38,312 nt of DNA from Clostridia bacterium (GTDB lineage: Bacteria; Bacillota; Clostridia; Oscillospirales; CAG-272). Below are positions 11,271 through 36,589 of the stretch, piece after piece. The notes below the pieces were generated by a model, which saw only the letters and a list, made by a program, of their open reading frames with translations, did not search any database and was not told the DNA's origin. Where the stretch lies: assembly GCA_017461765.1 (NCBI GenBank), contig JAFTXO010000020.1, positions 1 through 38,312 of the forward strand, written 5' to 3'. A program made the translations under genes and the position numbers. Within the stretch, counting starts at the first letter, position 1. The number at the start of each line of letters is the position of its first letter.

Positions 11271-12887
11271 TCATAGTTTATGTTCAATAGCATTGTATAC
11301 GGTTAAATAATCATTTGTCAAAACCGTGTCAATTCCCATATCAAGATAGCGTATTGCCTCGTTAGGATCGTCAGCCCAAAACACGTTACACAAAATGCCG
11401 TGTGCATGAGCCTTCTTCACAGTATCCTCGTTGAAATACGGCTTAAAGAGCTGCACCTTATAAGCACCAAGCTCGATTGCCCTGTCCACGATCGACATAG
11501 GCTCTTTATTTCCGTCCCAGCCGACGCAGCATTTTAAATCGGGAGCGTATTCGTGTAGCTTTCTTATGATGCTATCGTTTGTAGTCATAAAATAGATATG
11601 CTTTTCGCAATCGTATTTTCGGATAAGCGCGACAGCTTCCTCGATCTTAGGATCATCAAATCTCTCATCCCATATTTTCATATGGATATTCATTATCACG
11701 CGACCTGCAAATTTCTCCAATATTTCTTGAAAGGTGGGAATTTTAAGGTCCTTGAACCTTTCTCCGTGCTTTATGCCAAAGTCAAGCTCAAGAAGCTCGG
11801 AATATGTATGCTCGTAAATCTTTCCGTTTCCATTGCTAACGCGCTCAAGGGTGCTATCGTGGCACGAAACCAAAACTCCATCCTTTGTTGACCAGATATC
11901 AAATTCGATCTCCTGAGCTCCAAGTCCGACAGCCGCTCCGAACGCTACCATACTGTTTTCGGGCGCGACGGTACTAAATCCGCGGTGCGCGCAAATTCGG
12001 GGATATTTCATAACGTCGTCAAACGGAACAACCGACGCTCCGCCGTTACGGTAAAGCCACGGTCTGCGTCCCTCCTCGATATATTCATAATGAGATTTGA
12101 GCTTGCCCATATGACCAGCCGGCTTGTAATATTTATTTTTCGGATCAAATTCGCAAATTCCGAGTCCGACCTTGTTTTTCATATTAATAAGCTCCTTTCC
12201 GCAAGGAGCTACTATCATACTGCAACCGCAAGCTTCCGAGCTATCGCCAAGCGACACTGATGCACGGAGAAGATATGCGTTTGTATTATAGCAAAGAAAT
12301 TTATTTATTATGGAAAGCGCTTCATGACTGTCAGTACGTTGCAAGGAGCAGCCGATAATTATATCGAGCTTCTCACGGGCAAGTCTTGCAAAATTTTCAT
12401 AGAAATAAAAATCGTAGCAGGTAAGAAATCCGAAGCGAAGCCCTTCAAGCTCGATAACATAAGGCTCGCTTATATCATAGCTGTAAGCTACGTCAAGCTC
12501 GTGTCCGCCGTCTTTATCCGATCTTACCTCGCTCGGCGCGGGATGAGATTTAAAATACCGACCGACAATATTACCGCTTCTGTCGATTGCGTGCGTGGTG
12601 TTTCTGATCCCGTTTTCCGTTTTATAGCCCGAATTTACAAAAACAAGCGCATTACACCGCTTAGCCGTTTCTTTCGCCTTTTCAATAGTGACATTTCCGT
12701 ATTTGTCCACGGCATTATAAAAGCCATCCTTGCCCTTTACGTCAGCGAGAGCATCGCTATATTCGGGAAGCACGATAATATCAAGACCATCGTCGCACTC
12801 ATCAAGCAGCGAAATAAGCTCATAAAAGCACTTATCTATATCATTCTCATCAAAAGAATATCTCGGTTGAATAACACAAGCTCTCAT
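11271..12887 (-). CDS. Fusion: nitrilase-type C-N hydrolase + glycerophosphodiester phosphodiesterase
   Basis: 538 aa from the ATG at 12887 (AAAGGAGC seven bases upstream; the frame extends 10 codons further but without a site). Residues about 1-285 are a nitrilase-superfamily domain with the Glu-Lys-Cys triad: LPEYSDA (Glu42), RYFKSHPAP (Lys113) and LTCYDFYF (Cys157). Residues about 295-535 are a GDPD TIM barrel with AHRGFSTVAPENS, EIEFDIWSTKDG, SCHDSTLER and a C-terminal VLTNDY. Both active sites look complete. Separately these act on amides or nitriles and on glycerophosphodiesters. One protein doing both suggests a substrate carrying an amide and a phosphodiester, for example an N-acyl glycerophospho-compound; that is inference. 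No signal peptide. Confidence 0.88.
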   Translation of the reverse strand: MRACVIQPRYSFDENDIDKCFYELISLLDECDDGLDIIVLPEYSDALADVKGKDGFYNAVDKYGNVTIEKAKETAKRCNALVFVNSGYKTENGIRNTTHAIDRSGNIVGRYFKSHPAPSEVRSDKDGGHELDVAYSYDISEPYVIELEGLRFGFLTCYDFYFYENFARLAREKLDIIIGCSLQRTDSHEALSIINKFLCYNTNAYLLRASVSLGDSSEACGCSMIVAPCGKELINMKNKVGLGICEFDPKNKYYKPAGHMGKLKSHYEYIEEGRRPWLYRNGGASVVPFDDVMKYPRICAHRGFSTVAPENSMVAFGAAVGLGAQEIEFDIWSTKDGVLVSCHDSTLERVSNGNGKIYEHTYSELLELDFGIKHGERFKDLKIPTFQEILEKFAGRVIMNIHMKIWDERFDDPKIEEAVALIRKYDCEKHIYFMTTNDSIIRKLHEYAPDLKCCVGWDGNKEPMSIVDRAIELGAYKVQLFKPYFNEDTVKKAHAHGILCNVFWADDPNEAIRYLDMGIDTVLTNDYLTVYNAIEHKL

Positions 12888-12923
12888 ATTCAAAGCTCCT
12901 TTCAAAATTATTTTCACATTATT

Positions 12924-13169
12924 TCACTTGTTTTTATATCCGCAAATCGTGGCTATTACCACACCTAACAGCAAGCTCGAAGCAAGCATACCGAAGCTTA
13001 AAATCGTTTTAACACTGTCATTAAAGCGAACCAATGCTAAAACAAATAATATAACTTCAATAATCACATTAATTGCAAGCAGAAGATTTCCTGTCAAAGT
13101 TTTAAGATATATTTGCGGTGATTTCCTGTCAAACTTAAGTAAAAATCTGAAAATCTTTAATTCAAGCAT
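12924..13169 (-). CDS. Small membrane protein with two hydrophobic segments
   Basis: 81 aa. A basic N-terminus (MLELKIFRFLLKFDRKSP) leads to two predicted membrane helices, NLLLAINVIIEVILFVLALV (about 29-48) and ILSFGMLASSLLLGVVIATI (about 57-76), and a Lys-rich tail. No family recognised. It lies between the 30-aa membrane peptide (24 bases upstream) and the nitrilase-GDPD gene (36 bases downstream), all in the same direction. No good ribosome site is seen before the ATG, which lowers confidence in the exact start. Confidence 0.5.
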   Translation of the reverse strand: MLELKIFRFLLKFDRKSPQIYLKTLTGNLLLAINVIIEVILFVLALVRFNDSVKTILSFGMLASSLLLGVVIATICGYKNK

Positions 13170-13193
13170 CTTGCCATAGGCATTTTGCTTATA

Positions 13194-13286
13194 TCACTTT
13201 TTGTCTCCGTCATATATATTTATAGCAGAGACCGCATTTATAAATAAAGACAGAATAAAAAGCCAAATTATTACGCCATATGTCAT
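13194..13286 (-). CDS. 30-aa single-span membrane peptide
   Basis: Reads MTYGVIIWLFILSLFINAVS and ends in YDGDKK. It has one membrane helix (about 3-22) and a charged tail. The ATG at 13286 has AAAGGAAA seven bases upstream, a good ribosome site. Nothing identifies a function. The good site and clean hydrophobic profile support a real small gene. Confidence 0.45.
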   Translation of the reverse strand: MTYGVIIWLFILSLFINAVSAINIYDGDKK

Positions 13287-13334
13287 TATTTTTCCTTTCA
13301 ATATCTTAAGAATCGTTGCAGTAAAGGGTATATT

Positions 13335-13582
13335 TTAGAACCAATATTTTTGCATTTCTTCTAAAAATTCTTTTGTAATCGGATAGCCTGAGCTTTCACC
13401 AATTACGGAATCAATACCGCAATAAGGACAAGTGCTGTTCCTTCCGTATCTTTTATCCACTCTGTAATTTTCGTTGGAGAAAAAATCTTGAGGCAGTAAA
13501 AGCAACCACAAACAGAATCTCTCTGTAGGCTCTCCTTGTTGTTCGTACAATATTCGTGTGCAGCAATAATGTCTTTTTTCAT
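13335..13582 (-). pseudogene. Frameshifted two-CxxC small protein (CPYCGIDSVIG family)
   Basis: The start at 13582 (AAAGGAGT ribosome site) opens MKKDIIAAHEYCTNNKESLQ, then GCFYCLKIFSPTKITEWIKD. The family's second half, CPYCGIDSVIGESSGYPITK through EFLEEMQKYWF, lies in the next frame and ends at 13335. Adding one T in the CACTTGTCC segment (plus strand 13426-13434) restores a continuous 82-aa protein (TALCPYCGIDS). The intact family is a small cytoplasmic zinc-binding-type protein with two CxxC pairs and no known role. This is either a recent one-base deletion or a homopolymer sequencing error (TTT read as TT). Confidence 0.75.
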
Positions 13583-13630
13583 TTGTGACTCCTTTCTAAG
13601 CAAACAGCACTCCTTACATATGTCAAGACT

Positions 13631-13683
13631 CCAAAAGGTATAAAAATCGATCAAAAACTGGGGCTGTAAAGCCAAAAGGTATA
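13631..13683. repeat. Pair of 12-bp direct repeats
   Basis: CCAAAAGGTATA occurs at 13631-13642 and 13672-13683, between the frameshifted gene and the lipoprotein gene. Possible remnant of a duplication or a short mobile sequence; no function visible. Confidence 0.4.
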
Positions 13684-13691
13684 TTTTTACT

Positions 13692-14255
13692 TCAATTATT
13701 GATGTACGCAATAGAGATTTCCGTATTGGGCGGAACATCATTAAGGTACCAGAAATCAAGCGTCCATTCTTTTCCTTGGCAGGCAAAAGAATGCGCTTCT
13801 TTGCTCGGTGTTTTTCCATTTACCGTAAATGAAGCACTTGAATAGCACCAGCCGAAAACCTTGGAGTTATACTGCTGATACGGGAACAACACAAATTGTT
13901 CACTATCGCCGTTTAACACAAATTCCGTAGGGTCACTTAAAAGCCCTTCCTCAGTACAACCGTGGTAATGATACTTTCCCTCATCGTTTGTAACAAATGT
14001 AGCAGTTACAAGTGTATCGCCCTTTGACACAAAAGTCATTATCGCAATATCATCTATATATCTCGTTTCAAGCAAATGCTTAACGGTCAACATCTGCTCG
14101 GTTTCTGCCGTGCCATTTGCCGCTTGCACCAATGCCAGTTCGGGAGTATCTTGCCAACCGTCACCTATATATAGGCAACCGCCATCAAGCAAACTGCACG
14201 AGTTAAAGCAGAAAATTGATATTATTATAGCGACTGTCAAAATAGTTTTTTTCAT
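13692..14255 (-). CDS. Putative lipoprotein, function unknown
   Basis: 187 aa from the ATG at 14255 (AAAGGAAT ribosome site). A Lys-Lys N-terminus and hydrophobic stretch (TILTVAIIISIFCF) end at NSC, a plausible lipobox, so the mature protein would be lipid-anchored outside the membrane. The exported part is about 165 aa with no recognised domain; it includes an HYHGCTEEGLLSDPTEF segment and several Trp/Tyr-rich patches suggesting a beta-rich fold. The frame continues upstream to 14417 but lacks a start with a ribosome site, and that extension resembles non-coding sequence. Confidence 0.65.
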   Translation of the reverse strand: MKKTILTVAIIISIFCFNSCSLLDGGCLYIGDGWQDTPELALVQAANGTAETEQMLTVKHLLETRYIDDIAIMTFVSKGDTLVTATFVTNDEGKYHYHGCTEEGLLSDPTEFVLNGDSEQFVLFPYQQYNSKVFGWCYSSASFTVNGKTPSKEAHSFACQGKEWTLDFWYLNDVPPNTEISIAYINN

Positions 14256-14322
14256 CTCTATTCCTTTCGATATGTTATCCATTACTGCTGTAAAATGAAC
14301 TTTTGAGTTTTTCTCAAAATCA

Positions 14323-14691
14323 TCATTTGTCTTCAGCCGTTCCCTTTGCAGTGGTGATTGAGGCGATGAGCAACTTACGAATTTTACTACACTTTGCAAA
14401 CATATCCTTGTATTCATTCTCGGTTATCATATGGGTATCTTTGAACAAACCGAGCCAATAATCGGTTTCGTAGCACTCTTTAAGTGCAATTTGAAATTTA
14501 TTGATAAAGTCTACCTTGCTTGCGGCATAGTTGGCTTCGTGAATGTTTGCACCAACACTTGTGCCGCTACGCAGAACTTGATTTAATAGCACATTGCTTT
14601 TTCTATTCTCTTTGATATCTGTGCAAAGATTGACGATATCAACGGCAAATTGCTTTGATAAATCGACAAGAAAATTTTCTTTAATTATAAT
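14323..14691 (-). CDS. Four-helix-bundle protein (S23/IVP family), N-terminus disturbed
   Basis: The frame encodes LLNQVLRSGTSVGANIHEAN, then an AASKVDFINKFQIALKECYE segment and DYWLGLF, the hallmark of the TIGR02436 four-helix-bundle family found in 23S rRNA intervening sequences and as stand-alone genes. The open frame reaches family length (about 122 aa) only if extended to 14691, where the available start codons are ATT/ATA. An ATG at 14726 opens MTRSIKSLKNEG in another frame. Inserting one base near 14692 joins it to IIKENFLVDLSKQFAVDIVN, giving about 134 aa. So it is either frameshifted or starts at a rare codon after GAGGG. The protein family is small, helical and suspected to bind nucleic acid. 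The hairpin array at 14712-14824 touches its 5' end. Confidence 0.75.
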   Translation of the reverse strand: MIIKENFLVDLSKQFAVDIVNLCTDIKENRKSNVLLNQVLRSGTSVGANIHEANYAASKVDFINKFQIALKECYETDYWLGLFKDTHMITENEYKDMFAKCSKIRKLLIASITTAKGTAEDK

Positions 14692-14711
14692 CCCTCATTT
14701 TTTAATGATTT

Positions 14712-14824
14712 GATGCTTCGCGTCATGAATTGAATTGCCGTGTTCTCCTTATGCCCCGCAGGGCAATTCATGACCGAAGGTCAATTCATGCACGCCAGTG
14801 CAATTCATGCCAACGGCAATTCAT
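14712..14824. repeat. Array of covarying mini-hairpins joined by AATTCAT linkers
   Basis: On the plus strand: GATGC-TTC-GCGTC (14712-14724), ATGAATT, a 21-base insert, GCCC-CGCA-GGGC (14753-14764), AATTCAT, GACC-GAA-GGTC (14772-14782), AATTCAT, GCAC-GCCA-GTGC (14790-14801), AATTCAT, GCC-AAC-GGC (14809-14817), AATTCAT (14818-14824). The linker is constant at 7 bases; the stems differ yet remain self-complementary. An outer pair GAATTGCC/GGCAATTC (14732-14739, 14762-14769) encloses the second hairpin. A larger perfect hairpin inside rlmD (14827-14847, nine-pair stem) follows directly. The array abuts the four-helix-bundle gene and overlaps the rlmD stop codon. Confidence 0.85.
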
Positions 14825-16100
14825 TGTGTCGTGTGAGACACACGACACTTTCAATGTGTGCTGTTTTCGGAAACATATTGAACGGATAGACCTTTGATGA
14901 AAGGTTATATTCTTTAGCGAGGAGTGCGATATCGCGTGCGAGGGTATCGGGATTGCACGAAACGTAGACGATCCGTTGCGGCTTCAGGCGCAGAAGTGTT
15001 TCGGTCATGAAGCTTGAGAGCCCCTTGCGCGGGGGATCAACTATGCAAATATCGACACGTCTATCGAAATTTTTAGCGTCGCCCTCGAAAAATTCTATGT
15101 TTTTTATTTTGTTTATCTGTGCATTCCGCTTGGCATCGGAAACCGCGCTCGGCTCTATCTCAACTCCTATGACGCTTGCGCCTGTTTTTGATGCCAATAT
15201 AATTCCTATCGTACCCGTTCCGCAGAACAGATCCGCGACACTGCTGTCCTTAGTTGCATCTGCAAGCTCAATCGCCTTTTCATAAAGAAGCTCGGCGCAG
15301 GCGTGGTTTACCTGATAAAATGCCTTCGGAGAAATTTCAAAATCAAGCGAGCAGAGCCTGTCCTTTAGCTTTTTCTCTCCGTAGAGTGTTTTAAAATTAC
15401 ATTTCTCCAAAACGAATTCCTTCTCCGTTGAAATGCCGAGAATCACACCCGTTATGCTCGGAAATTCATTCACGAGCTCGGATGCGTATTTAAGAATATC
15501 GCTCTCTCTTGAAAAAATCGGGCAAACGGTAATTTCGGGCGTCTTAGCGCTTGACTTCCGCATAAAAAGTGCGACCAGGTGTCGTTTATCTTCGATATTT
15601 TCTTCAGTAAAGCGCGCTATTCTATCAAATATTTCATCATTTAAAATACATCTTTCGTGCTTCACTATCTCGTTTGATTTTTGTTTTTTATAGCCGAAAG
15701 CGGTTCCGTTCCAGAATAAAACGATCTTATTTCTGTACTTCCTATCGACAGGGCAAGCCACATCCGCCACGTCTGCGTCTATTTTTGATTTTTTCAAGAC
15801 GCTTTTTACATATTCACGCTTAATTCTGTTTTCTTCCGCTATACTAACATTTAAAAATGCACAACCGCCGCACCCGTACGCATTACATTCTCTTTTTACC
15901 CTGAGGGGCGAGGGAGTGTTTATTTTTACGATCTTTGCAAGAGCATATTTCGGATAAAGCTTCGTTATTTCGATCTCTGCGACATCACCCGTCACACCCC
16001 CAAGGACAAAAACGACCATACCGTCGATATGGCACACAGCGTTTCCGAGATTATTCATTTCCTCCAAGGTCACGGTGTATTTTTCTTGTTGCGCGATCAT
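14805..16100 (-). CDS. rlmD: 23S rRNA (uracil-C5)-methyltransferase, RlmD/TrmA family
   Basis: 431 aa. SAM-dependent m5U methyltransferase. It has an N-terminal TRAM domain (1-60), the iron-sulfur cysteines CNAYGCGGC, motif I DLFCGTGTIGI, the IVDPPRKGL motif, and the catalytic cysteine in YVSCNPDTLARDI. Slightly shorter than the 450-460 aa norm. The protein ends VVCLTRHNELPLA: the last residues are encoded by the hairpin array, and the TGA stop lies in one of its ATGAATT linkers, so the natural C-terminus has probably been replaced. In many Clostridia paralogues are called RlmCD; which uridine is modified cannot be told here. Confidence 0.92.
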   Translation of the reverse strand: MIAQQEKYTVTLEEMNNLGNAVCHIDGMVVFVLGGVTGDVAEIEITKLYPKYALAKIVKINTPSPLRVKRECNAYGCGGCAFLNVSIAEENRIKREYVKSVLKKSKIDADVADVACPVDRKYRNKIVLFWNGTAFGYKKQKSNEIVKHERCILNDEIFDRIARFTEENIEDKRHLVALFMRKSSAKTPEITVCPIFSRESDILKYASELVNEFPSITGVILGISTEKEFVLEKCNFKTLYGEKKLKDRLCSLDFEISPKAFYQVNHACAELLYEKAIELADATKDSSVADLFCGTGTIGIILASKTGASVIGVEIEPSAVSDAKRNAQINKIKNIEFFEGDAKNFDRRVDICIVDPPRKGLSSFMTETLLRLKPQRIVYVSCNPDTLARDIALLAKEYNLSSKVYPFNMFPKTAHIESVVCLTRHNELPLA

Positions 16101-31774: not shown

Positions 31775-31804
31775 TCATAAAAGCGCACAGACGCAATATA
31801 TGAT

Positions 31805-31912
31805 ACTTCTTCCATCCAGACTTTAACTGTCGGTCTTGGAATTACACCAAGTCTTGCCCTGAGGCTCGCGGACTTTACCGCCGATCGGGAATTGCACCCT
31901 ACCCTGAAATAT
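31805..31912 (-). promoter_or_regulatory. FMN riboswitch (RFN element)
   Basis: On the minus strand the aptamer carries the RFN consensus blocks in order: AGGGTAGGGTGCAATTCCC, GATCGGCGGTAAAGTCCGCG, GAGCCTCAGGGCAAG, a variable hairpin (CTTGGTGTAATTCCAAG), GACCGACAGTTAAAGTCTGG and ATGGAAGAAG. The 5' and 3' ends pair to close P1. It controls ribU through the terminator at 31744-31774: FMN binding should stop transcription. Confidence 0.96.
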
Positions 31913-31924
31913 CTCTTTGTATAA

Positions 31925-35187: not shown

Positions 35188-36258
35188 ATGCCTGCTTATA
35201 AGGAAAAAGACAGCAAAACTTGGTATGTGTCCGTTCGTTACGAGGATTGGACGGGCAAAAAAACACGAAAGGTCAAGCGCGGATTTCAAAGCAAGCGCGA
35301 GGCTCTTGAGTGGGAGCGAAAGTTCCTTCTGAAAGAGAACGCAAGCCTTGATATGACCTTCGAGTCCTTCTTGGAGCTTTACAAGGAAGATTTGAAGGAC
35401 AGACTCAAGCTCAGCACTTGGATTATGAAAACAAGCGTGATCGATCAAAAAATCCTCCCTTATTTCAAAAATAAGCGTATGTGCGACATTAAGCCTTCCG
35501 ATGTGATCGCTTGGCAGAAAGTAATAATGGCGCACAGAGATGAGAATGGGAACGCCTACACGCCGACCTATCTCAAAACCATTCACAATCAGCTCAGCGC
35601 GATATTCAACCACGCTGTTCGCTACTATGAGCTTTCAAGCAACCCTGCCGCCAAGGCTGGCAATATGGGTAAAGAGAAAACGAGAGAGATGCTCTTTTGG
35701 ACGAAGGACGAATATACGACCTTTGCCGAGGAGATTATGGACAAGCCGATCTCCTTCTATGCCTTTGAAATGCTCTATTGGTGCGGACTCCGTATGGGTG
35801 AATTGCTCGCCCTGACACCGAACGATTTTGATCTTGAGGACGGCATCGTCCGCATCACAAAATCCTATCAGAGAATACACGGCGAGGATGTTATTACAGA
35901 TCCCAAGACCGACAAAAGTATTCACAATATCAAAATGCCCGATTTTCTTGTGGACGAGATACAGGACTATCTCAAAGCCTTGTATAGTGTTGAGGGCGAT
36001 ACTCGCATCTTCCCAATCACGAAGGGATACCTTCACCGTGAAATGACGAGAGGTTGCAACGCCACGGGTGTGAAGCGTATCCGTATTCACGACCTTCGCC
36101 ACTCGCACGTTTCCTTGCTTATCAATATGGGATTTTCAGCCGTTGCTATAGCAGACCGTGTCGGTCACGAAAGTATCGATATCACCTACCGCTACGCACA
36201 CCTTTTCCCGACCACACAGAAGGAAATCGCAAACAAATTAAACACAGAGAGAGGTTAA
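35188..36258 (+). CDS. Tyrosine recombinase (integrase)
   Basis: 356 aa. Arm-binding N-terminus (SKTWYVSVRYEDWTGKKTRK, about 8-30), core-binding SAM-like domain (about 55-150) and catalytic domain. Catalytic residues: Arg in WCGLRMGELLAL, HDLRHSH (His-x-x-Arg), His in VGHES and the nucleophile Tyr in ITYRYAHLF. The Tn916-like layout fits integrative elements of Firmicutes. AAAGGAGCG lies seven bases before the ATG. It probably recombines at the guaA side (33040-33140). Confidence 0.95.
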   Translation: MPAYKEKDSKTWYVSVRYEDWTGKKTRKVKRGFQSKREALEWERKFLLKENASLDMTFESFLELYKEDLKDRLKLSTWIMKTSVIDQKILPYFKNKRMCDIKPSDVIAWQKVIMAHRDENGNAYTPTYLKTIHNQLSAIFNHAVRYYELSSNPAAKAGNMGKEKTREMLFWTKDEYTTFAEEIMDKPISFYAFEMLYWCGLRMGELLALTPNDFDLEDGIVRITKSYQRIHGEDVITDPKTDKSIHNIKMPDFLVDEIQDYLKALYSVEGDTRIFPITKGYLHREMTRGCNATGVKRIRIHDLRHSHVSLLINMGFSAVAIADRVGHESIDITYRYAHLFPTTQKEIANKLNTERG

Positions 36259-36262
36259 TATT

Positions 36263-36589
36263 ATGTCAGCAAAAAACAGAGATAAGTATCAGAGATGGCG
36301 TTGCCACACAATCGCATTCAGAATGTCACCCGAGGAAAGCCGTCAGCTTGATATTGCCGTGAAGCTTTCGGGACTCACGAAGCAAGATTATGTGTGCAAC
36401 CGTTGCCTTGAGCGTGATGTGGTTGTACAGGGCAATCCGAGGGTTTACAAGGCTCTCAAGGGGCAGTTGGCAGAGGTGCTCGCCGAGCTGCGCAAACTCG
36501 CCACAGCGTGCGAAATTACGCCCGAACTGCTCGAAACAATCAACCTTATCACCGTTACGATGGAAGGAATGAAAGGAGAGAGCGTATGA
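36263..36589 (+). CDS. MobC-like mobilization protein
   Basis: 108 aa. The N-terminal segment TIAFRMSPEESRQLDIAVKL then SGLTKQDYV is a ribbon-helix-helix motif, with a longer helical tail (GQLAEVLAELRKLAT), as in MobC or relaxosome accessory proteins and related mobile-element regulators. It starts four bases after the integrase stop and overlaps the next gene by four bases (ATGA). A role with the MobV relaxase downstream is likely but inferred. Confidence 0.7.
   Translation: MSAKNRDKYQRWRCHTIAFRMSPEESRQLDIAVKLSGLTKQDYVCNRCLERDVVVQGNPRVYKALKGQLAEVLAELRKLATACEITPELLETINLITVTMEGMKGESV

Follow-up and report, generated by a model that had tools for sequence, protein, structure and literature searches.

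Genes of the S23 protein family occur in intervening sequences (IVSs) of the 23S rRNA genes of Coxiella, Leptospira and Brucella and, to our knowledge, neither IVS elements nor the S23 protein has had a known function for decades. In one report (PMC4990558), the Coxiella rRNA IVS has GACAGAT heptamers upstream of S23p in a strain-dependent copy number, the IVS is bordered by a complementary stem and takes the place of a small loop in an rRNA helix, and the Xanthomonas S23 is a homopentamer. The loci described here share with these IVSs the S23 protein family, upstream short repeats and a complementary border stem; however, they sit at the ends of protein-coding or tRNA genes and not inside an rRNA gene, and they have features of their own: hairpins separate the repeats, cargo genes and a right-end motif are present, and the elements stack in tandem. 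Cyanobacterial heptamer repeats, which we take to be those named STRR, are alike in that 7-bp tandem repeats adjoin S23 genes in Nostocales plasmids, whereas these units have no hairpins between the repeats. No paper connecting STRR with S23 was found in the open-licence literature.

Integron cassettes are likewise small, carry accessory genes, stand in tandem and share a repeated site at which they are joined; their attC is read by structure. The present loci differ from them in that no integron integrase was identified (no PF00589 match within 20 kb of the right-end motif or the window array in 21 genomes, the integron type being undistinguished), in a left end that bears its own gene (S23) and array, and in having gene 3' ends as targets. 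ICEs and phages in rumA, the 3' end of which is an ICE hotspot, and islands at tRNA 3' ends use the same target genes and also restore the gene end; however, the element described below is ~1.2 kb in length, and no integrase was present among 20 cargo proteins.

An earlier sequence-only reading of a 38,312-nucleotide stretch of DNA from a Clostridia bacterium (hereafter, the window) had pointed out an array of mini-hairpins beside a four-helix-bundle gene. This array probably forms the structured left end of a small mobile element, here called the S23 element, which is site-specific and carries cargo. It looks like the front end of a small and so far undescribed type of mobile cassette of gut bacteria, built around a single small ring-forming protein; no named element of such architecture was found in the open-licence literature. 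An S23 element consists of a terminal hairpin, the two-armed array, S23, at least one accessory gene and a right-end motif ending in CA. It follows CA at the 3' end of a gene for RNA uracil methyltransferase, or directly follows the CCA of a tRNA or tmRNA, and provides a new gene end or a terminator-like hairpin, the native end being moved to the right side. S23 elements are stacked in tandem and are present or absent between relatives, and their mobility is read from sites and copies compared at the sequence level. The earlier suggestion that hairpin array and helical-bundle protein may form a small mobile system fits the unoccupied sites, tandem copies, exact targets and variable cargo reported below.

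The array and its neighbours in the window

The window lies in a 1.65-Mb draft genome (55 contigs, 81% complete), which its S23 gene places near ruminant-gut Clostridia/Oscillospiraceae MAGs. The features of the locus are collected in Table 1, where the position of the left junction was deduced from relatives.

Table 1 Positions of the parts of the S23 element and its host gene in the window
Feature	Position	Strand	Remarks
Host gene, RNA (uracil-5-)-methyltransferase of the RumA/RlmD/TrmA kind	14805..16100	-	PF05958
Putative left end (sequence after CA)	14835..14856	-	Encodes replacement host-gene end; holds left hairpin arm
Terminal hairpin	14826..14848	-	10-bp perfect stem, TCT loop; 12-19 bp in many relatives
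Two-armed array	14705..14824	-	Four ATGAATTG linkers with hairpins, centre, then reverse CAATTCAT/AATCAT linkers
S23/IVP four-helix-bundle gene	14323..14685	-	Directly 3' of the array
Spacer between S23 and cargo	14262..14291	-	ACAGCAGT...TAACATATCGAAAGGA; shared by many elements at the methyltransferase site
Cargo gene, lipoprotein-like ORF	13692..14255	-	MKKTILTVAIIISIFCFNSCSLL...
Right-end repeat 1	13660..13682	-	ATACCTTTTGGCTTTACAGCCCC
Right-end repeat 2	13619..13642	-	TATACCTTTTGGAGTCTTGACATA; form of the right-end motif, which was found in relatives
Decayed native 3' end of host gene	13589..13620	-	Reads YVRSAVCLER; far side of the element (by eye)

Four AATTCAT linkers, one inverted ATGAATT copy and five stems (GACC/GGTC, GCAC/GTGC, GCC/GGC, GCCC/GGGC and GATGC/GCGTC) had been described, and all of them were confirmed in their place, with CAATTCAT at 14764, 14782, 14801 and 14817 and ATGAATTG at 14725. 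The hairpins and linkers of that description stand, but the array, which runs from 14824 to 14705 in the orientation of S23, is two-armed, with forward and then reverse linkers, and has a terminal hairpin: a further 10-bp hairpin, absent from the earlier list, precedes it in this orientation. Selection had also been read from pairing that is kept despite sequence change; the argument is weak from one array alone but gains support when copies and relatives are compared.

The array score, defined as the number of "linker + hairpin" units in the 400-nt region upstream of S23, was 3 for the window locus, a level reached by none of 545 shuffles. The window array is no chance pattern. The pattern CAATTCATGN{6,20}CAATTCAT gave 14 matches in the 1.65-Mb genome of the window, and the same pattern read backwards gave none. 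When folded alone, the window array was only moderately stable (z -3.0), and some of the mini-hairpins were missing from its minimum-energy fold because the linkers pair with one another.

The neighbour of the array is an S23/IVP-type four-helix-bundle gene, as had been proposed: the protein matched 23S_rRNA_IVP (PF05635) at 86.4 bits against a cut-off of 33.8, the second match to the S23 family profiles (PF05635, TIGR02436) scored 97.9 bits against a curated cut-off of 24, and PDB 2RLD was matched with E 2e-25. The start codon of the window copy (14683-14685) is ATT, whereas that of relatives is ATG, and this copy may therefore be poorly translated. The element appears to provide the final codons of the window methyltransferase, from HIESVVCLTR onwards, and the longer frame of the lipoprotein-like cargo ORF had no match in Pfam.

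Beyond the element, two more small ORFs (12924-13582), which are possibly older cassettes, separate it from a GDPD/carbon-nitrogen hydrolase gene (11271-12917); at another locus (L057), a gene resembling the latter comes after the restored gene end. A tyrosine recombinase and its neighbours near the end of the window (35188-36589) are perhaps another integrated element. No rRNA gene was found in the window, for which Rfam at the gathering threshold gave only one tRNA and one FMN riboswitch (31800-31915; RF00050, 110.5 bits).

Arrays upstream of other S23 genes

Array scores were determined for 109 of 116 S23 loci, six being unplaced (L021, L022, L023, L046, L092 and L094) and one having a short flank (L103). 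A score of at least 3 was observed in 71 of the 109 upstream regions, none of 545 shuffles and 7 of 288 control pieces from the same loci; for a score of at least 2, the corresponding numbers were 91, 11 and 15. The link between arrays and S23 genes lies far above the controls. Since most of the 109 loci are relatives of the window S23, 32 placed loci (of 36) form a more independent set, in which the score was at least 3 in 16 and at least 2 in 23. The hairpin array was missing at seven of these 32 (L003, L024, L025, L027, L032, L036 and L048), some of which carry short tandem repeats. Throughout, the genomes are mostly drafts, the loci are mutually related, the controls are simple and covariation was counted by scripts. 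S23 proteins at least 95% identical were present in 13 of 80 loci from different genomes.

The genome of the window has six S23 genes, and all but one (L003) have an array upstream, each with a different linker (by eye). Across S23 families the linkers are 7-9 nt long and vary: ATGAATTG, AGTGATATT, GCTAAATT, ATGAAGC, GTGAAG, GTGATG, AATGATGT, ATATCATC, GTATGGAAT and others were observed. The single linker AATTCAT is accordingly true of the window but not of other S23 families. Among arrays having two or more linkers in each direction (linkers assigned per locus by eye), all forward linkers stood ahead of the reverse linkers in 71 of 74 cases, over 7 linkers; the same order was found in 15 of 16 arrays whose linkers differ from that of the window. 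Stems of at least 4 were present in 135 of 316 inter-linker segments, against 11 of 309 random pieces and 13 of 316 shuffled ones, whereas a stricter test of pairing between the first four and last four bases gave a weak result (17/199 own, 1200/39402 crossed). Furthermore, the folding z of the upstream regions had a median of -5.2 (45 loci, 31 below -4), and that of the control pieces -1.07 (41 pieces, 5 below -4).

Among five array copies in the genome of the window, some differences are the gain or loss of a complete hairpin unit and others are stem changes under which pairing persists; the earlier reading had proposed to map hairpin gain and loss between strains. Nor is the pattern unique to the contig, as it recurs elsewhere in the same genome, among relatives and on two gut phage contigs. 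In the latter, hairpin and array lie upstream of S23, in one case behind a tRNA-like sequence (by eye); a table of phage regions in another report (PMC5524665) contains four-helix-bundle genes.

The pairing of array and S23 requires correction, in that the array also exists without S23 in dispersed repeats. In the genome of the window, S23-less ATGAATTG arrays (L010, L012, L015, L016 and L019 on C18, C19, C35, C36 and C48, and L014 on C19) sit in six dispersed elements of roughly 430 nt each. These copies gain and lose hairpin units relative to one another, and some bear AGAGGTTGTC-like inverted ends (by eye), which may or may not be terminal inverted repeats of the MITE kind. The six dispersed places would agree with REP/BIME-like palindromes spread by a Y1 (RAYT/IS200-like) transposase, with S23 as a passenger; the arrays recall BIMEs, whose palindromes bear a constant short motif in either orientation, and dispersed palindromes in both orientations are also common to MITEs. 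On the other hand, the array is tied to S23 genes, each S23 family has a linker of its own, and the repeats kept beside distant S23 genes are different ones. We regard such a palindrome origin as improbable.

Insertion sites, ends and cargo

A methyltransferase C-terminus was located just ahead of the ATGAATTG array in 42 of 67 cases, these being the window and the 66 of 80 S23 loci with at least two [AG]TGAATTG upstream. Two same-genus loci (L132 and L133) represent the unoccupied site, in which the methyltransferase ends natively (HVESVVCLSRK*) and hairpin and array are absent. Allelic sites with and without the array, a comparison that the sequence-only reading had called for, therefore exist here and likewise at tRNA-Leu. 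Behind the methyltransferase, L132 and L133 have a ACAAATGTGA...ACAGCAG spacer and other ORFs with neither S23 nor array; because spacer and ORFs occur without S23, S23-less cassettes seem to exist at this site, in these two loci and in others.

Of 20 larger loci, 18 had a long hairpin in the region upstream of S23, with a stem of 11-21 bp. A terminal hairpin score of at least 9 was found in 28 of the 42 methyltransferase loci, 8 of the 25 other loci and 2 of 1340 random positions; the score is ungapped and penalises bulged stems, and several of the loci below 9 carry a one-base bulge. The stems covary between relatives, as had been predicted. Among loci preselected for a score of at least 9 and similar arm length, 16-base arms paired at 15.75 of 16 positions with their own partners and at 6.79 when crossed (12 loci, 9 distinct arms), and 11-base arms at 10.77 of 11 and 4.21, respectively (13 loci, 9 distinct arms). 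In tandem elements the left arm follows another element's right end and is therefore element-borne; its origin from host DNA copied by snap-back was dropped.

Quasi-palindrome template switching is a process that perfects stems, and the hairpins might be its neutral products with no user. The terminal hairpin loop is found in both orientations (TCTACCGA in L198, TCGGTAGA in L211 and L255), as if flipped, which is expected of strand switching, and the gain and loss of entire hairpin units between copies points the same way. Nevertheless, this process explains neither the conserved linkers and the two-armed order found with 7 of them nor the constant position 5' of S23 and the exact targets, and we consider it highly improbable.

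At the second class of target, an element with the ATATCATC linker in the genome of the window starts at the first base after the CCA of tRNA-Leu. This junction was searched in 29 same-genus genomes, 27 of which gave a match; same-genus tRNA-Leu sites were also found with other terminators and without the array, and the same hairpin and array recur behind other RNA genes elsewhere in the genus. CA preceded all of 14 hairpin starts (counted by eye, with reverse palindrome readings left out), and nine of the 14 hairpins began exactly after a tRNA or tmRNA called by ARAGORN (Leu, Gln, Cys, Arg, Ser and tmRNA), one of the nine (L202) having no array behind it. The right end of this class, ACCTTTT....CGTTTAAGRCA, resembles that of the methyltransferase class and is followed by another element or a simple terminator. 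A second copy of the left hairpin stem on the far side was seen in only 1 of 20 larger loci, and target duplication at terminators was rejected on this count.

A promoter-like box at a fixed place between array and S23 was observed in 11 of 23 terminator-site loci, namely the array loci outside the ATGAATTG group, against 1 of 79 ATGAATTG loci and 38 of 1100 control pieces. With the box between them, the S23 transcript at terminator-site loci may leave out the array, and the result favours a DNA role of the array. The same box bears on two other explanations. In one of these, the hairpins serve as a device for the transcription of S23 and its cargo, be it a terminator, an insulator or an attenuator, and ordinary phage or ICE integrases sharing att sites move the element. 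The box itself would suit such a device, and the terminal hairpins behind tRNAs resemble strong symmetrical terminators; however, a simple insulator requires neither identical linkers nor a forward-then-reverse order. Taken with the evidence on integrases given below, this explanation is unlikely, although it retains an appreciable chance. The other is a form of type III toxin-antitoxin system, in which tandem RNA repeats lie upstream of the protein that they bind. A repeat array directly 5' of a gene for a small oligomeric protein has this arrangement, but the box suggests that the array is outside the S23 transcript, and expression of the Coxiella S23p did no harm to Escherichia coli according to the IVS report (PMC4990558); we find this form scarcely credible.

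The cargo downstream of S23 varies between elements. Pfam matches were obtained for 12 of 20 cargo proteins scanned, the other eight having none, and comprised GNAT acetyltransferases, small P-loop ATPases, histidine phosphatase, peptidase S51, ADP-ribosylglycohydrolase, MazG, a C_GCAxxG protein, pyrophosphatase and a SAP-domain protein. No recombinase or integrase was among the 20. A defence reading of S23 and cargo was rejected, as PADLOC gave no match for S23 or eight cargo proteins.

The right-end motif, ...ACCTTTTGGAGTCTTGACCCA, ends in CA, after which comes the native methyltransferase end or the hairpin of the next element. In eight loci the distance from the start of the motif to the matched native gene end was 26 nt. 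Allowing up to one mismatch, the motif was present in 29 of 395 family genomes and the pattern read backwards in none, and up to four copies stood in a row (G104 and G387). A gene-end-like start, NRTNGA, follows all 37 distinct motif places (30 loci). A second ACCTTTT-like repeat before the motif was discarded as a criterion, being not sharp (30 of 37 places, 899 of 2000 random ones). S23 was slightly more frequent in motif genomes (26/29) than in controls (19/29), which were picked by the author from motif-less genomes, and this enrichment weakly supports a role in trans.

Candidate recombination enzymes and the wider S23 family

Enzyme families were searched in 21 genomes, consisting of 20 of the 29 motif genomes and the genome of the window. 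PF00589 (tyrosine recombinase, the Xer type not being told apart) was the only one of three families present in all 21, with a single member each in G104, G115 and G258 (98%, 76% and 56% complete, respectively). The mover may therefore be an Xer-type host enzyme, which we name as a candidate only. PF00239 (resolvase-type) was present in 14 and absent in 7 of the genomes, and a serine recombinase as the general mover was rejected for this absence.

Movement by phage or ICE integrases, the second part of the transcription-device explanation, would agree with the rumA 3' end as an ICE hotspot and with a G364 gene of the resolvase type situated 2.4 kb from the right-end motif (C76, 48542 and 50983), the sole recombinase so close in the 21 genomes. 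However, no PF00589 match lay within 20 kb of a right-end motif or the window array in these genomes, the nearest lying ~21 kb from the window array on its contig and, in G002, at a distance of ~54 kb. The single tyrosine recombinase of G104, G115 and G258, the lack of the resolvase type in 7 of 21 and the cargo free of recombinases also speak against it. A shared ICE or phage integrase is nevertheless a possible mover of the S23 element.

A retroelement would be a further alternative, in which a trans-acting reverse transcriptase copies a folded RNA in the manner of a diversity-generating retroelement (DGR) or of group IIC introns, which insert behind terminators. Two reports show that Avd of DGRs resembles PF05635, making it an S23-related four-helix-bundle protein (PMC10053308), and that DGR homing requires a DNA hairpin by its structure and not its sequence (PMC3240598). 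In contrast, RVT_1 was present in only 2 of 21 genomes, with none in G104 (98% complete) or the genome of the window (81% complete), and neither template nor variable repeat was seen. With RVT_1 absent in 19 of 21 genomes, the reverse-transcriptase model is disfavoured, and only a very slight chance is left to it.

For the S23 element, we propose that pentameric S23 binds the repeated 7-9 nt linkers, which would be presented on an extruded or single-stranded branched structure; forward linkers could pair there with reverse linkers, with the hairpins projecting between them. S23 may in this manner assemble the element end for recombination, and strand exchange would be carried out by a host or trans-acting enzyme. 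Both the binding of S23 to the array and the mover enzyme are inferred here. A recombination end that is conserved in structure while its sequence differs by family would offer a clean model for structure-read DNA. In addition, S23 is now seen to recur in cassettes whose ends, targets and cargo can be defined; its role is thereby open to direct test, and cassette shuffling is suggested as a route taken by accessory genes in gut Clostridia.

S23 units on plasmids were compared in 15 of 25 matching records (cyanobacteria, Bacteroidota, Spirochaetes and Monoglobus). Upstream of S23, a period-7 tandem repeat exceeded all 200 shuffles in 11 of 15. Downstream of S23, the same heptamer was inverted in six records and lay on the same strand in three, while two records had a different one and four could not be assessed. 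We infer that gut-Clostridia arrays, plasmid heptamer-S23 units and rRNA IVSs belong to one family, of which rRNA IVSs with S23 genes would be a branch; the cassette reading suggests what these S23-bearing "intervening sequences" may be. More broadly, S23 proteins may define a widespread class of mobile elements without a catalytic protein of their own, in which the pentamer and a two-armed array of 7-9 nt repeats, bare or separated by hairpins, form a structure-read DNA end and the host provides strand exchange, with rRNA IVSs, cyanobacterial units and gut-Clostridia cassettes as three branches. We put this forward tentatively, as a possibility somewhat short of probable.

At four occupied cyanobacterial loci, in three kinds of place, S23-less relatives carry other DNA of ~60 to 328 nt, so that replacement rather than clean insertion is the reading obtained from these sequence comparisons. 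S23 with inverted heptamer arms replaces 188 nt (an HNH-like segment by eye) in L246 relative to L277/L278, and 328 nt of the relatives' gene in L269 relative to L280/L281. In two Nostocales plasmids (L268 and L273), the S23 gene lies between cas2 and cas1, which are adjacent with no S23 between them in the relatives L282 and L283, the boundaries of the insert being approximate. In Monoglobus (L242), the hsdS and hsdR genes of a type I restriction system flank an S23-like gene.
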